NCBI RefSeq assembly: GCF_900142545.1
Contig: NZ_FRBF01000010.1
Span: 1 to 64,000 of the forward strand
Source of the DNA: Fibrobacter sp. UWT2
GTDB taxonomy: Bacteria > Fibrobacterota > Fibrobacteria > Fibrobacterales > Fibrobacteraceae
Reading direction: 5' to 3'
Length of the DNA stretch: 64,000 bases
Positions 45,135 through 50,853 of the stretch are shown here, one piece after another. The notes beneath the pieces are model-generated. The model worked only from the letters and a program-made list of their open reading frames with translations. It was not told the DNA's origin and did not search any database. Made by a program: the position numbers and the translations under genes. How positions within the stretch are numbered: position 1 is the stretch's first letter; every line of letters starts with the position of its first letter.

Positions 45135-45737
45135 TTAGAATGCGTCAGAATGCCGGTCTGATTCTTTCTGAACGCCTGCAAATATTGCATATATTACCAG
45201 ATATGCGACTGCAAACAGAATGTCGATGTGGGTAATTCTGCCTACAAATATTTTCTCCGCAAAAATAAGTAGAGGCGGAAAACAAGGAATAATCTGTTTG
45301 ACGGATATTATGCGGCTGGTTTTTGATATAGAGAAGATGCTTGCCAATAGGCAGAATACGATTGAAAAAAAATATGGAGCAAAACGGCTTGCTAAATAAA
45401 AAGCTGTATTGTCTAAATACATCCCCTGAAAACATACAAGGCCGATGGCAATGTATACAACACAGACTGTCAAGCCGAAAATAAACAACCTCTTTGCCCA
45501 CTTGTCATCAACCAACAGCCGTTCGTCTCTTTTCAAAACTAAGCTGAAAAACAGTAAAATCGGCAATAAAATGGCGCAATAGGCAAATGTTCCTGCACTC
45601 GCTAGTGCAAATCCCAAAAACTGCGGACCGAATTCACTTTCGCGAGAAAACTCGTCTAGCAAAAATATGAACGGTAGCGGGCATAGGACCGCACTAACTA
45701 GCGAGGCTATCGAAATATGATGTTGCTTTATTTTCAC
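45135..45737 (-). CDS. Small polytopic membrane protein
   Basis: I choose the GTG at 45737, which overlaps the TGA of the upstream gene (GTGA), over a TTG 12 bases earlier. The 200-residue protein has about six membrane helices (ISIASLVSAVLCPLPFIFLL, GFALASAGTFAYCAILL, LFIFGLTVCVVYIAIGLV and others) and short charged loops. No motif gives a function. The overlap with the muramidase-like gene implies coupled translation and a shared process, possibly export of or protection against that enzyme; this is inference. Confidence 0.6.
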   Translation of the reverse strand: MKIKQHHISIASLVSAVLCPLPFIFLLDEFSRESEFGPQFLGFALASAGTFAYCAILLPILLFFSLVLKRDERLLVDDKWAKRLFIFGLTVCVVYIAIGLVCFQGMYLDNTAFYLASRFAPYFFSIVFCLLASIFSISKTSRIISVKQIIPCFPPLLIFAEKIFVGRITHIDILFAVAYLVIYAIFAGVQKESDRHSDAF

Positions 45738-46558
45738 CTTGGATAACAATATAGCATCAATAACCTATCCAAGACCCTGCGTAAGCCTTCATTATTCCAA
45801 TTTCGTCCTAATTCAGGGTGTTTCCATAGCTGTTGGCGGTATATTTTACCGACTCGTTTCCCATAATCGCTAATTTGTTGAGCGCCTAGATGATTGTATA
45901 ATGTTGCAATTCGCTCAATGTCATTAGGATTACCGACTAGTTTGGACAGGCGTTTGATAAATTCTGCCGCAACAAAAATGTTGTAGCCTGGATTTTTTAA
46001 GGAATCCATAGTGCCAAAGGAATCTCCCCAATAACGATGGTTGATATTCATTGGCTGAAAGGATTTTAAGCCTGGATAAATAAGTTTGCTGACACCTTCA
46101 ATTTCATCACCACGCATAACAGCATCGGTGTAAAATTTATTTAAGCAATGTTCGTAATAACCATGAGTCGTTTCCATATACATGATTGCACGCAGCAAAT
46201 CAGGATTGACAGACTTGGCCTTTGCGGCAAATTCAATTTCGTTATTGTACCGGTCGACCATGTTGAAATTGGAATTTTCGTACCATGGCATCTCATCAGA
46301 TGCTTTGGGGTTCCAATTGACTGGAAAAATGGTGCCATCATTCATATTTAAGAAGGCTTTTTTCCGTTCTGGTTCTGAAGAAATATAAGTGAGATCAGGG
46401 TACAGGCGCATCATTTGGTTCCAGAAGTCGTCTGGACCATAATTTATTTCGTTTAAGCGGTGCATGGCGTTCTCACGATTTTTTATATCGTGCAAAAGAG
46501 CCAATCCAAGATTGTCAAGTTTTGTTTCGTAATTGATAAAATTGAGTTCATTAGGCAT
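45734..46558 (-). CDS. Muramidase-like (lytic transglycosylase-type) protein
   Basis: The ATG at 46558 has AAAGGAGG four bases upstream. The 274-residue product has a lysozyme-like helical fold in residues about 105-250: VNPDLLRAIMYMETTHGYYE carries the probable catalytic Glu, followed by DSLKNPGYNIFVAAEFIKRL and RIATLYNHLGAQQISDYGKR, as in goose-type lysozymes and lytic transglycosylases. No signal peptide is seen, so export must use another route or the protein acts inside. It may cut peptidoglycan. It overlaps the small membrane-protein gene and is preceded by a 20-codon frame and the structured RNA at 46806. The fold assignment is moderate. Confidence 0.55.
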   Translation of the reverse strand: MPNELNFINYETKLDNLGLALLHDIKNRENAMHRLNEINYGPDDFWNQMMRLYPDLTYISSEPERKKAFLNMNDGTIFPVNWNPKASDEMPWYENSNFNMVDRYNNEIEFAAKAKSVNPDLLRAIMYMETTHGYYEHCLNKFYTDAVMRGDEIEGVSKLIYPGLKSFQPMNINHRYWGDSFGTMDSLKNPGYNIFVAAEFIKRLSKLVGNPNDIERIATLYNHLGAQQISDYGKRVGKIYRQQLWKHPELGRNWNNEGLRRVLDRLLMLYCYPR

Positions 46559-46657
46559 AAAGCCTCCTTTGGGGTTAGAGTTGATTTTTGGGTACAAAAC
46601 CAAAACCTGTCAGACGATTTTGCCTGACATTAGGGAAAAAACGGCATCTTCTCTTCG

Positions 46658-46720
46658 TTATGGTCTTATAGGCGCTCCTTTGATAAATCGTTCCTCTATG
46701 TTATCGGACTTTGTGTGCAT
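46658..46720 (-). CDS. 20-codon small ORF, possible leader peptide
   Basis: The frame MHTKSDNIEERFIKGAPIRP starts at ATG 46720 and has an outstanding ribosome site, AGGAGGTGA, nine bases upstream. It ends 99 bases before the muramidase-like ATG. The hairpin TGTCAG/CTGACA (about 46613-46634) lies between the two. The arrangement could be a regulatory leader, or the peptide could be functional by itself. No similar peptide is known to me. Confidence 0.5.
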   Translation of the reverse strand: MHTKSDNIEERFIKGAPIRP

Positions 46721-46805
46721 CGACTTTCACCTCCTGGATATTTTACACACTTTCGACATTTTTTTCTTTATCTAATGAATAAAACTTGGGTCTTTTTTTA
46801 TGAAT

Positions 46806-46994
46806 AAAAAAGGCGTGGTGTCGAATGCACTTACACTACTGAGGCTCTAGCAAAACCTGTCCACAATAAGCACAAACGACCCACGCCCGAATAGAGCGAA
46901 GATTCTTCATTCAATGTGGACGGGATTGATTCTTTTTATGGAATCTGCTAGAATTTCAGTAGTGGAATCAGAATCCGTTTTCAGTCTATGTCAA
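46806..46994 (-). ncRNA. Structured RNA copy B, predicted pseudoknot
   Basis: Reading the minus strand, a box TTGACATAG (46986-46994) is followed by three helix strands, a core (GGGCGTGGGTCG then TTTGTGCTTAT, 46866-46888), the three partner strands, and CGACACCACGCC plus six T (46806-46823). The long helix pairs 46834-46842 with 46956-46964, 46846-46852 with 46946-46952, and 46859-46865 with 46915-46921. The core strand CGACCCACGCC (46877-46887, plus sense) lies in its loop and is complementary to 46812-46823 outside it, so a pseudoknot or a switch is predicted. Copy A at 49639-49846 has the same plan with different helix sequences. It precedes the muramidase-like operon. Confidence 0.7.
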
Positions 46995-47024
46995 AAAGCA
47001 ATTCTTTTTGTTTTAATAATCTCC

Positions 47025-47108
47025 TTATTCTTCCATTTTTACACAATCTTGTGAAATGTATTTTTGCGGGTCTTTCACGGATTTGGGTAAGCCTGTTTTG
47101 AAATCCAT
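47025..47108 (-). CDS. 27-codon ORF echoing the end of the restriction-modification gene
   Basis: Ten bases after the restriction-modification stop, a frame begins with MDFKTGLPKSVKDPQKY and runs 27 codons to TAA at 47025. The enzyme itself ends in LDFKT, so DFKT is repeated. The DNA is GATTTTAAGACT, 15 bases, then GATTTCAAAACA. A small in-frame duplication containing a TGA could have cut off the natural tail. It has no good ribosome site and may be untranslated. Confidence 0.4.
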   Translation of the reverse strand: MDFKTGLPKSVKDPQKYISQDCVKMEE

Positions 47109-47117
47109 AGCAAGTTA

Positions 47118-49565
47118 TCAAGTCTTAAAATCAAGATATTCCTTGGCTTTTTTGTAGAAAATATTCTTGATGTATTGTTCCATATAAGGATAGTCGGGAT
47201 TGCCTTTATCATCAATCGGAAGCATGATTTTTTGCCTAGACAAGCGATTTGTTCCCATTTTTAAGCAGTAATTATATTTTTCTTTTTGCTGCATTATCTG
47301 TGTCGTCATAAAAAGACTAACGGCTTCGTTATCTCTAGGGCAGTGAAGTATTTTTAGTTTTCGACAATCATTAGAAAATAAAGCCGGGTATTTGTGATAG
47401 AATGCATATCCTACAGAGCCGTTCCTATTTACAGCGATCACATTCGATTCGTATGTAGAATTCATATTAGAAACAAAATACTTTATTCCATTATTTTCTG
47501 CAGATGATGTAATATAAGGGATCTTGCCTTCAATGCGTTCCTTGTCATAAATATCACAGCCTGATTCTATTTTAAATATTGAATCAATTGGAAATGCTCT
47601 CCATTCCTTTTCTTCTAATTTGGCAATTTCATTATATTTCGCAACTTGCTTATTGGTTCCCTCAAATAAATATTTTCGTCCTTGCATAATCATTGAAAAT
47701 TCAAAGGATAAGTAATCACCGACTACTTTGTCAAAACTTTTTTCAGAAGGGATTTCGTCATTGAAGTAGTAGAAACTATGTAACCATTCTTCTTCTGCGG
47801 TAATGGTTGATTTGACGCAGAACTTGTTTTCTGCCTCTATTCTGTCAAACCACACGTCTAGCAAGTGCTGCCGTTTGTCTTTTGCAGATTCAGTTTCTAG
47901 AAGCCCAATATGGGGCGAGACCTTGTAACCGTCATCTTCAAAATTGATGAATTTGCATATCTTTTCTTTTGGATGGGGCTCACCTGCAGTGAATATTGCA
48001 ATACAAGGAATCGTTCCCACTCCATAGAAAGTGTCCTTTTGCAACATGACGACGCCTTCAAGCGTATGTTTGTTTAGAATACTTCGCTTAATATCCAGTT
48101 CTTCTTTTGATTTTCCTGTCATCGAACTTTGGGGAACAATAACTGCACAACGTCCACCTGGTAACAAGGAATCTAAAAGATGTTCCGTAAAGGCAATCTC
48201 GTATTGTTCTGGATTGTTCTTACTCCCTTGACTATAAGGAGGATTCATCATACCCACGGTTGAACGAATACTTGATTGCAGTTCCTTTGGATTCTTTTGC
48301 AAGAAATCATCGCATTGCAGGTTGCTCTTGCCATCACCGCGCAAAATCATATTTGTTGTCGCAATGGTGAACATGTCCGAGCGTTGTTCAATACCATAAA
48401 GCTGATTTTTACGAATAGACTTCTTTTCAGCTTCAACATCCGTTTTGGAAAGCATTGTATGAAGTGCCGCTACAAGAAATCCTCCGGTTCCGCAACAGCT
48501 GTCGAATACACGATCCGTCTTTTTGAGATCAAGTAGTTCACAGAAAAGTTCGGTAATATGCTTTGGTGTAAGGACAATTCCTAATGTTTGTCCGCTACCA
48601 CCCGAATAGTGCATAAATTCGCCATAGAATCTTCCCAAAAAATCTTCGGTTGATTTACTGAATTTGATGGATTTATAGAGTTTCTCATCTAGAAATTTCG
48701 TGAAAAATTTCAATGGAGTTTCACCTAAAGACTGATTTACTTCATTTAGTTTTGTACTGTCTTTGATGATACTGAATTGAGAAAGAATCTTGTCAATTTT
48801 GGTAATGGGAGAAAGGTCTGTTCGCTTAAAACTAGACTCTATAGCGTTGTAAATTTTCTGACCATCTGTAATGGCATGCATACCCGATTCGCCGGTAAGC
48901 GAATCGATGCTGAAGTTTCTGTTATCTCGTTCACGTAAAGCGAGAAGAATTCCCGAAACAACAAGCGGCTTTTCTTCATCCTTCATGTTGCCGTAATTTC
49001 GCAGATGCTCATGTAATTCTTTTGCATCGGCTAATATTTCGGCAAGTTCTTTTTCCTTGTCCGTATCTTCTTTGAGAACATCTCGCAGATAAAATTCATC
49101 GATATTGTTTTCACTGAATGAAATAAATGATTCGACGTCATCTAAATAAAATACATTGCATCGGTCATCGATAAATATGGGTGTAATCCGATGCTTCTTT
49201 GATGTTCCTGACACACCAATCGCAAAAACCTTCTTGTATGTCGTATTCCTTATTAGATGCCTGCCGTAAAAGAACGCTCCGTTCATAGCGTATTTTTTAA
49301 CGGACTTGACATCCATCGCCAAAAGACCATCGTCGTCACGCTTTTCATGGTCTTGGATTGAAGCCTTGTCTTCAATGACAATCAAGAAATCCTTTACTAT
49401 GCCGACATATTCCGGAAAACCAACATTACCCGTTCCACTTTTTGAAGCAGTCTTCAAAGCGTTATCTATTTCAACAATTTCACTTCCCTGTGCGTCGTGG
49501 ACTATTCCTGCTTCATTAAGAAGGTCGTGCACCCACAAATCCGTTTTAACTTCTTTCTTCGCCAT
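47118..49565 (-). CDS. Single-chain restriction-modification enzyme (type IIG-like)
   Basis: The start is ATG 49565, with AGGGA upstream. The 815-residue protein joins three parts. The first is an N-terminal nuclease-like domain with FPEYVGIVKDFLIVIEDKAS, the E/D-EDK pattern of PD-(D/E)XK enzymes. The second is an N6-adenine methylase with motif I DSCCGTGGF near 353 and NPPY near 440. The third is one C-terminal target-recognition domain of HsdS type (about 640-800, WRAFPIDSIFKIESG followed by GKIPYITSS). One chain thus can cut, methylate and recognise DNA. Only one recognition domain is present. The gene is AT-rich, flanked on both sides by related structured RNAs, and has no separate R or S gene. 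Confidence 0.85.
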   Translation of the reverse strand: MAKKEVKTDLWVHDLLNEAGIVHDAQGSEIVEIDNALKTASKSGTGNVGFPEYVGIVKDFLIVIEDKASIQDHEKRDDDGLLAMDVKSVKKYAMNGAFFYGRHLIRNTTYKKVFAIGVSGTSKKHRITPIFIDDRCNVFYLDDVESFISFSENNIDEFYLRDVLKEDTDKEKELAEILADAKELHEHLRNYGNMKDEEKPLVVSGILLALRERDNRNFSIDSLTGESGMHAITDGQKIYNAIESSFKRTDLSPITKIDKILSQFSIIKDSTKLNEVNQSLGETPLKFFTKFLDEKLYKSIKFSKSTEDFLGRFYGEFMHYSGGSGQTLGIVLTPKHITELFCELLDLKKTDRVFDSCCGTGGFLVAALHTMLSKTDVEAEKKSIRKNQLYGIEQRSDMFTIATTNMILRGDGKSNLQCDDFLQKNPKELQSSIRSTVGMMNPPYSQGSKNNPEQYEIAFTEHLLDSLLPGGRCAVIVPQSSMTGKSKEELDIKRSILNKHTLEGVVMLQKDTFYGVGTIPCIAIFTAGEPHPKEKICKFINFEDDGYKVSPHIGLLETESAKDKRQHLLDVWFDRIEAENKFCVKSTITAEEEWLHSFYYFNDEIPSEKSFDKVVGDYLSFEFSMIMQGRKYLFEGTNKQVAKYNEIAKLEEKEWRAFPIDSIFKIESGCDIYDKERIEGKIPYITSSAENNGIKYFVSNMNSTYESNVIAVNRNGSVGYAFYHKYPALFSNDCRKLKILHCPRDNEAVSLFMTTQIMQQKEKYNYCLKMGTNRLSRQKIMLPIDDKGNPDYPYMEQYIKNIFYKKAKEYLDFKT

Positions 49566-49638
49566 CGGCAAGGTCCCTAAGATAAGCTGATCAATCGTTC
49601 TTATCCTAGCCCTTGACGAGAGTCATTTTGCAAGCAAC

Positions 49639-49846
49639 AAAAAAGGCGTGGAGTCGCAGGCTTACCTTGTCTGCGGGCTACCACACCCTTTTACCTGATA
49701 AGCACAAAACGACCCACGCCCAATATGGGCGTGAGCGTTCGTCTTATCCTCAGGTAAATTGAAAGTGGTAGTTTCAGACAAGAGAATAAGAGACGAATCT
49801 CAAAAATTCCGGTCGCTCCGAACCATTCGGTACGGGGCTATGTCAA
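49639..49846 (-). ncRNA. Structured RNA copy A, predicted pseudoknot
   Basis: On the minus strand it begins at a TTGACATAG box (49838-49846) and ends with CGACTCCACGCC and six T (49639-49656). The long helix pairs 49667-49673 with 49775-49781, 49678-49684 with 49765-49771, and 49690-49702 with 49743-49758 (8 plus 5 bp with a 3-base bulge). The core CGACCCACGCC (49710-49720, plus sense) is in the loop and complements 49645-49656 outside it. A local hairpin ACGCCCA-ATA-TGGGCGT (49716-49732) competes for the same core. Ten bases separate terminator stem and long helix, as in copy B. It ends 74 bases before the restriction-modification start. It is not tmRNA, RNase P, SRP or a CRISPR array. Confidence 0.72.
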
Positions 49847-49858
49847 CAACAATTTAAA

Positions 49859-49929: not shown

Positions 49930-50853
49930 TTACGAAGATTCCCTGATTTTCTGGATAATTTCTTCAGGGTAGTTGGAAACTGCTGCGATTTTTTCATTGG
50001 AATCACCAAGATTAATCATAGCTTTGATCCAATCTCGGTCTCGCTGAGCAATCTTTTCAGCAAGTTCTTCTTCTTCGACTTCGGCGATGGACTTGTAGCC
50101 GTAAACTTCACTGCATTTCTTGAAATCCATTTTAAACTGCTCCTTGGCATCGCCGTTGAACCACTGTTTCAAATATACAAATGTTTGGGATAAAAACTCC
50201 TCGGCTTCTTCACGGGGAAGCGACTTGAGTCCTGCCATAGCCGCTTTCAGATGCTTTTTGAGTTTCTCCCCATTAAAAACATACTTCAAAGCAACCAGCG
50301 CAAGTGCGATCTTGGGCGAAATCTGAGGAATTTCGTTGTCCTCGAAGATGTCGCTCACGTCAATGAGTTCCAATAGGAACGGCAATCCAATTTTGTGATA
50401 GTATTTAGGGTAATTCGGGAACATTACTTCCTTTTCAATATGCCAAGGTTCTTTCCCGTTGTAGAGAACTACGGCGACAGTCGGGATGTTCTTCTGGTTA
50501 CGGACCATAATCTGGAACCAGTACTTGACCAACTGAGGGATAATTCCCGCTTCGGGATAGCTCTTGTGTTCTTCGATGATGCCTACGAGAAGCTCTGCCT
50601 GCTTGGGCTCATCGCTTGCAATCTTTACGGTGAATGCCAAATCGCCATCACCATGGGAGACCGTATCGCTGAATGCCCCGGAAATTTCTTGCAGTGTATC
50701 AAGATTCACCGTTGCAAGGAATTGGGCGAGATTGTTGTTCTTTCTGGACGCAAGGCGAAGAAGTTCCGCCGTGCGTGCGGGATCCTTCAGCACCGAGCGG
50801 ACGTAAGGATCGTGCGAAATTTTTTTTGTTGGGGAAGCATCTTTTTCAGACAT
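49930..50853 (-). CDS. Rpn/YhgA-family PD-(D/E)XK nuclease
   Basis: The 307-residue protein has the Rpn family pattern: [20 protein letters not shown] at the N terminus and the nuclease core [11 protein letters not shown] followed by [11 protein letters not shown] (D, E and K of the PD-(D/E)XK fold). The C-terminal half is helical with repeated Glu/Lys and ends in a small degenerate helix-turn-helix-like segment ([19 protein letters not shown]). Rpn proteins promote recombination and recent work links some of them to phage defence. The gene has a structured 5' leader with two perfect hairpins and its own terminator, so it is an independent unit. Confidence 0.82.

Follow-up and report, generated by a model that had tools for sequence, protein, structure and literature searches.

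What kind of RNA, if any, is encoded by the two related minus-strand elements, A (49639-49846) and B (46806-46994), that lie in a 64,000-nucleotide (nt) stretch of the Fibrobacter sp. UWT2 genome (contig NZ_FRBF01000010.1, positions 1 to 64,000; hereafter the window)? An initial annotation, made from the letters of the window, described them as structured RNAs with variable helices on a plan it could match to no known family, folding as a pseudoknot or a two-state switch and linked to an accessory island. Our analysis shows that A and B are members of one new structured-RNA family, and suggests that each element is likely to be a cis-acting transcription-attenuator leader, equipped with a terminator and an antiterminator.

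Sequence inspection recovered every described part of both elements at its coordinates: a TTGACATAG box, a core of the form GGGCGTGGGTCGTTT(T)GTGCTTAT, a 3' strand CGAC-N-CCACGCC followed by six T, and three extra helices. Within the window TTGACATAG occurs at 49838-49846 and 46986-46994 only (chance expectation 0.32), and a degenerate form of the core gave two matches in the window against none in 100 shuffles. Both elements also fold better than all 200 of their shuffles, with z-scores of -6.1 for A and -3.8 for B. B belongs to a divergent subtype without the GAGA-UUCG-UCUC hairpin; a search of its own genome with a model made from A-type copies detects it at 80.5 bits (E about 1e-14).

To catalogue the family we combined pattern and covariance-model searches; their E-values are rough, and since many of the genomes are metagenome-assembled (MAGs), a copy that looks truncated or chimeric may owe this to its assembly. 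Six instances of the core pattern lie in the UWT2 genome, and a search of GTDB contigs returned 59 stretches with it, of which nearly all are Fibrobacter. A covariance model built from 41 copies (R1) found nine strong copies in the UWT2 genome, both window elements among them, and matched 79 of 80 Fibrobacter genomes with up to 18 copies per genome, 95 of 168 Fibrobacterota genomes, and 50 of 395 Bacteroidota genomes. In three further families of Fibrobacterota (f7-f9) R1 finds weak matches that share little sequence identity but follow the plan. R2, a second model made from 18 Bacteroidota copies alone, recovers the window copies (E 1e-11 and 4e-5) as well as those of f7-f9. These reciprocal matches support homology, or at least a common architecture, across the two phyla. 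The scanned Fibrobacterota genomes hold several hundred copies, to which a Bacteroidota branch is added.

As far as these searches show, the family is unreported. Rfam 15 returned no relevant match to the copies, even at E up to 1, in agreement with the proposal of an unfamiliar plan, and phage, plasmid and IMG/VR contigs contained no match to the family. Open-licence literature on structured RNAs or riboswitches upstream of restriction-modification (R-M) or SusC genes, and on Fibrobacter motifs, held nothing matching, although a description elsewhere is possible. Flavo-1 and other motifs of Weinberg and Breaker are computationally found structured RNAs of Bacteroidota (PMC2864571, PMC9723704); unlike these, the copies described here are not matched by Rfam models, and the motif papers searched make no mention of the family.

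Read 5' to 3', the first half of the RNA comprises a promoter-like -10 box, the conserved GACATAG, a variable hairpin P0, a hairpin H1, strand a, P1, the K1 hairpin (whose loop is P2), P3 and strand b. The second half follows with the 5' strand of H2, a shared GC strand, a conserved UCGUUUGUGCUUAU (containing strand c), P3' and the K2 hairpin (whose loop is P2'), and the 3' end is formed by P1', strand d, the 3' strand of the helix T and a U-run. The structured stretch spans about 160-240 nt, features conserved loops and linkers, and closes with a GC helix and U-run upstream of an open reading frame (ORF), as an intrinsic terminator does. In 85 copies a -10 box resembling TATATT precedes GACATAG, its last base 7 nt away, so that TTGACATAG straddles the likely RNA 5' end; the box that had been placed upstream is present in both elements but is not an isolated upstream box.

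In element A the leader RNA runs from GACATAG to the U-run at 49639-49844 (minus strand, as are all features below), behind a -10-like TTAAATT (49851-49857) that aligns with the TATATT consensus and has the same 7-nt spacing. Its 5' half carries the variable hairpin P0 (49815-49838, from sequence and folding), H1 (GAGA-UUCG-UCUC, 49790-49801; GAGU-UUCG-ACUC in other copies), strand a or L5' (CTTATTCTC, 49782-49790), the P1 5' strand (TTGTCTG, 49775-49781), the P2 5' strand or K1 loop (CTACCAC flanked by GAAA and TTTC, 49765-49771), the P3 5' strand (TTTACCT, 49752-49758) and strand b or L3' (GAGGATAAG, 49743-49751). There follow the H2 5' strand on the antiterminator side (CTCACGCCC, 49727-49735), the shared strand that serves as H2 3' strand or T 5' strand (GGGCGTGGGTCG, 49710-49721), strand c or P4 5' (GTGCTTAT, 49698-49705), the P3 3' strand (CAGGTAAA, 49690-49697), the P2 3' strand or K2 loop (GTGGTAG, 49678-49684), the P1 3' strand (CAGACAA, 49667-49673), strand d or P4 3' (GGTAAGC, 49660-49666), and the terminator-like T 3' strand with its U-run (CGACTCCACGCC, 49639-49656). 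H1, P1, P3, H2 and strands a-d were assigned by covariation, joined by pairing counts for a-d and by strand swaps for the P1 5' strand; strand swaps define both P2 strands, the joint count of H2 and T bears on H2, the shared strand and T, and the T 3' strand was also read from sequence. The three extra helices of the initial annotation are among these pairings, which that annotation gave incompletely, missing H1, L (a with b), P4 (c with d), H2 and the kissing K1/K2 hairpins.

The covariation of the helices is overwhelming. It had been claimed by inspection of A and B, and two copies cannot prove it; across 64 copies, 96.8% of cells are paired, vs 82.6% in shuffles, with 410 double changes vs 110. 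The covariation score of 0.429 (0.158 shuffled) was reached by none of 500 shuffles, and structures slid along the alignment scored at most 0.104 with about 45% pairing. When 3' strands were swapped between copies, pairing fell from 99.1% of cells in cis to 56.7% for P1 and from 97.2% to 45.9% for P3, both of which use all four Watson-Crick pairs, and the kissing run fell from 8.5 to 5.9. P2 stays complementary in cis in ten or more versions of its sequence. The K1/K2 stems of f7-f9 and Bacteroidota copies are longer (e.g. GAAAA/UUUUC, AGGUA/UACCU) and surround complementary loops, which, read by eye, supports the formation of kissing hairpins by K1 and K2. The search of Fibrobacterota genomes proposed by the initial annotation thus yielded further copies with compensatory helix changes, and in these homologues the helices are kept as pairs.

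H2 and T share one strand (GGCGUGG), such that only one of them can form, and in 156 of 163 copies both have at least 6 contiguous base pairs on it, so that a mutually exclusive antiterminator is kept. The shared strand itself varies (GGCGTGG, GGTGTGG, GGTGCGG, GTGGGCTTT, GCGCGAGCTG and others), and on the aligned sequences this is three-strand covariation for two exclusive predicted states. Strands a, b, c and d (CUUAU/AUAAG twice) likewise allow two arrangements, a-b with c-d or a-d with b-c, and each combination pairs in 96-98% of cells. In L179 and similar f7 copies, judged by eye, the four strands have changed together: a and c to GUUUC, b and d to GAAAC/GAGAC.

These data suggest how such a leader might operate. 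Two nested folds that exclude each other are conserved in the sequences. The read-through fold would join the two halves of the RNA into a long rod (a.d-P1-P2-P3-b.c) whose H2 cap hides the terminator 5' strand; in the stop fold, each half would close on itself, as hairpin a.b with K1 and as terminator T with c.d and K2. We infer that the stop fold would terminate RNA polymerase at the U-run and that the rod would allow transcription of the operon, with a bound metabolite, protein or RNA picking the fold. The state in which the K1 and K2 loops kiss may be the sensed or a transitional one, and the free drift of P1 and P3 as pairs would keep the many copies of a genome mostly self-specific.

Several observations weigh against this attenuator model. 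ViennaRNA, which considers nested folds only, finds the read-through H2 rod about 10 kcal/mol more favorable in each of the 64 copies and gives T a probability of 0.02; with the rod as ground state, the RNA should read through unless a factor or kinetic effects intervene, and termination needs one of these. Moreover, L, H2, T and P4 vary little within Fibrobacter, and their covariation rests on divergent copies, partly by eye. The a-d and b-c pairings were counted on the near-invariant Fibrobacter alignment only and, since a, b, c and d hardly vary there, independent support for them rests on f7 copies such as L179.

The genomic context of the copies argues for a leader function. A same-strand ORF follows nearly all of them, starting 13-118 nt away (median 61) in the 57 A-type copies of the first set, a sample drawn by exact core match and biased to an R-M-rich subtype. 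In that set the downstream ORF mostly encodes a DNA methyltransferase or R-M protein, with overlapping domain counts of N6_Mtase 24, Eco57I 15, N6_N4_Mtase 10, MmeI 10 and HsdM_N 8 among 61 proteins. In the UWT2 genome all seven A-type copies lead methyltransferases; A itself leads an 817-residue fusion of N6_Mtase and Methylase_S (47118-49571, minus strand) whose first possible start lies 67 nt past the U-run. In 13 near-complete Fibrobacter genomes a same-strand RNA lies within 2.5 kb upstream of 15 of 48 N6 and 11 of 32 C5 methyltransferase hits (26 of 80), and no opposite-strand RNA was found near those 80. By hand tally, about 47 of the 98 copies in these genomes lead R-M genes and roughly one in five stands before a lipoprotein gene (Fib_succ_major or similar), the remainder preceding DUF4417, UvrD helicase, membrane and secreted proteins. 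The R-M systems in question comprise types I, II, IIG and III. Among ten downstream proteins tested from Bacteroidota there were seven TonB-dependent receptors (SusC/TonB), one response regulator and one sigma factor. A restriction of the RNA to R-M systems, our first idea, was dropped as too narrow: other genes stand behind about half of the copies in the 13 genomes. Nor is the leader merely linked to an accessory island, as had been proposed: a single genome can have up to 18 or more copies, and in both phyla they stand before operons, among them R-M, toxin, lipoprotein and TonB-receptor operons. An ATG in the 5' hairpin of A raised the possibility of a leader peptide, but it is not conserved.

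These observations bear on what else the RNA could be. Nearly all copies possess a complete -10 box and terminator, many occur per genome, and their fold is strong and stable, all of which would also suit a stand-alone small RNA that acts in trans, a self-contained transcript roughly 200 nt long with promoter and terminator of its own, the neighboring gene being co-inherited or separately transcribed. We consider this unlikely, as an ORF is almost always close, downstream and on the same strand, without an opposite-strand case among the 80 methyltransferases, and a constitutive terminator would not need the conserved second fold that hides it. A static pseudoknot, with L, P1-P3, P4 and T formed together, is about equally improbable: L, P1, P3 and P4 do adjoin without spacers, as in a four-way junction, and the K1/K2 loops remain complementary in f7-f9 and Bacteroidota, yet a-d and b-c compete with L and P4, and H2 and T are both conserved despite excluding one another. 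Because these two helices share a strand and cannot coexist, a two-state switch is better supported, even though the kissing loops are conserved; of the two folds offered by the initial annotation, which was right that the core can pair in two ways, the switch is thus favored over the pseudoknot.

A less distant alternative concerns what chooses the state, and overlaps with the attenuator model. The RNA might mainly be a binding site for protein-driven antitermination, through a phage-like antiterminator or a NusG paralogue akin to LoaP, RfaH or UpxY; the surface-protein, R-M and accessory operons it precedes generally resemble NusG-paralogue targets, and a kissing-loop architecture is kept while the helices vary. 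We regard this as possible but rather doubtful, given that terminator and antiterminator both reside within the RNA itself. No common protein gene was found beside the copies, though none was sought, and no UpxY/NusG-paralogue gene appeared among the first downstream proteins scanned, a scan not aimed at it. It is very improbable, by contrast, that the copies are DNA-level recombination sites (attC-like or cassette junctions) spreading R-M and surface cassettes. Genes are flanked by copies in the window and in C9, and P1 halves are mismatched in L019 and L012, as if recombined, but the promoter and U-run are conserved, G-U pairs occur among the pair types, the orientation upstream of ORFs is fixed and the design is conserved across two phyla; no integrase was noted, although integrase-linked cassette arrays were not tested for.

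The attenuator model finds its closest parallels in terminator/antiterminator riboswitches and attenuators (T-box, purine, cobalamin), which similarly have a 5' leader whose terminator and antiterminator share a strand; kissing loops are known in the purine and cobalamin classes. The present RNAs differ in that the kissing loops lie between the hypervariable helices P1 and P3, four strands are interchangeable, and the targets are R-M, toxin and surface genes rather than a metabolic pathway. Where a metabolite riboswitch would be expected before genes of one pathway, these leaders precede R-M, lipoprotein, EndoU, TonB-receptor and sigma-factor genes. A T-box leader was considered for an AGGGUG-like stretch recalling the bulge that binds the tRNA NCCA end, and rejected, as the stretch is P2'/K2, covaries with K1, and gives no Rfam T-box match. 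UpxY leaders of Bacteroides capsule loci and LoaP/RfaH targets exemplify leader-level control of elongation in accessory or surface operons, a likeness offset by the R-M and SusC targets and the RNA fold kept across phyla found here. C proteins, finally, restrain or time the expression of R-M operons; the target is alike, whereas here the regulator is an RNA element that precedes types I, II, IIG and III.

Joint control of unrelated R-M operon types is little known, and the same design also precedes EndoU toxins and the SusC receptors that dominate the surfaces of gut and soil Bacteroidota. We tentatively propose that the leaders of both phyla may form a new and abundant riboswitch-like class through which one global signal (a second messenger, a nucleotide, or a cue that phages or competitors are attacking) is read and the R-M systems, toxins, TonB receptors and surface lipoproteins are coordinated, with copy-specific kissing hairpins preventing cross-talk among a dozen or more paralogous leaders of one cell. 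Identifying the trigger would reveal a common signal for conflict and surface genes, and the family, an orthogonal set of natural RNA switches whose helices compensate, would be useful for RNA design.

Element B, the divergent copy, extends from GACATAG to the U-run at 46806-46992 (sequence and model matches). Sequence and folding place its 5' strands of P1 (CACTACTGA, 46956-46964), P2 (TCTAGCA, 46946-46952) and P3 (GTCCACA, 46915-46921) opposite the 3' strands of P3 (TGTGGAC, 46859-46865), P2 (TGCTAGA, 46846-46852) and P1 (TCAGTAGTG, 46834-46842); the core pattern marks the T 5' strand and strand c (46866-46888), and the T 3' strand and U-run (CGACACCACGCC, 46806-46823) were read from sequence. 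The ORF after B (45737-46558, minus strand) encodes 274 residues without a Pfam or NCBIfam match. Between them, a short minus-strand ORF (46640-46760, MHTKSDNIEERFIKGAPIRP) has a strong Shine-Dalgarno sequence, and a GTGTAAAATAT stretch is common to other B-type copies. B-type copies elsewhere (L002, L038, L178; L053) lead EndoU nuclease genes, which are probably polymorphic toxins, or else an addiction-module antidote. B was at first taken to trail the R-M operon, a reading replaced by that of a leader of the next gene (EndoU in relatives).

Directly upstream of A lies a Transposase_31/YhgA-like gene of the Rpn family (49930-50853, minus strand). Behind A-type leaders, a gene for a TPR protein of about 642 residues recurs in several species (L009, L022, L041, L044, L051, L202), and one Bacteroidales MAG (L239-L254, G168) holds about 19 copies of the RNA, several before similar short secreted proteins of about 160 residues. 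The mismatched P1 halves of L019:6490-6652 and L012:4677-4840 accompany a 3' half like that of another copy, through recombination, gene conversion or assembly chimeras, and four copies (L029, L035, L044, L064) bear internal deletions near P3 and L3' that are either real decay or MAG assembly artefacts. A long subtype of about 225-245 nt has an enlarged H2. Where it leads type II R-M genes, a second 5' half (A') follows the U-run, with P1, P2 and P3 strands matching the first (L141, L145, L154, L142, L144, L072, L149), and then a conserved stretch and a ribosome-binding-site hairpin (GAGAGUGAACUCGUUCACUUUC). As the A' strands match the first 5' half, the 3' half has two possible partners; this duplication supports a function for half-to-half pairing and hints at a second layer of control.
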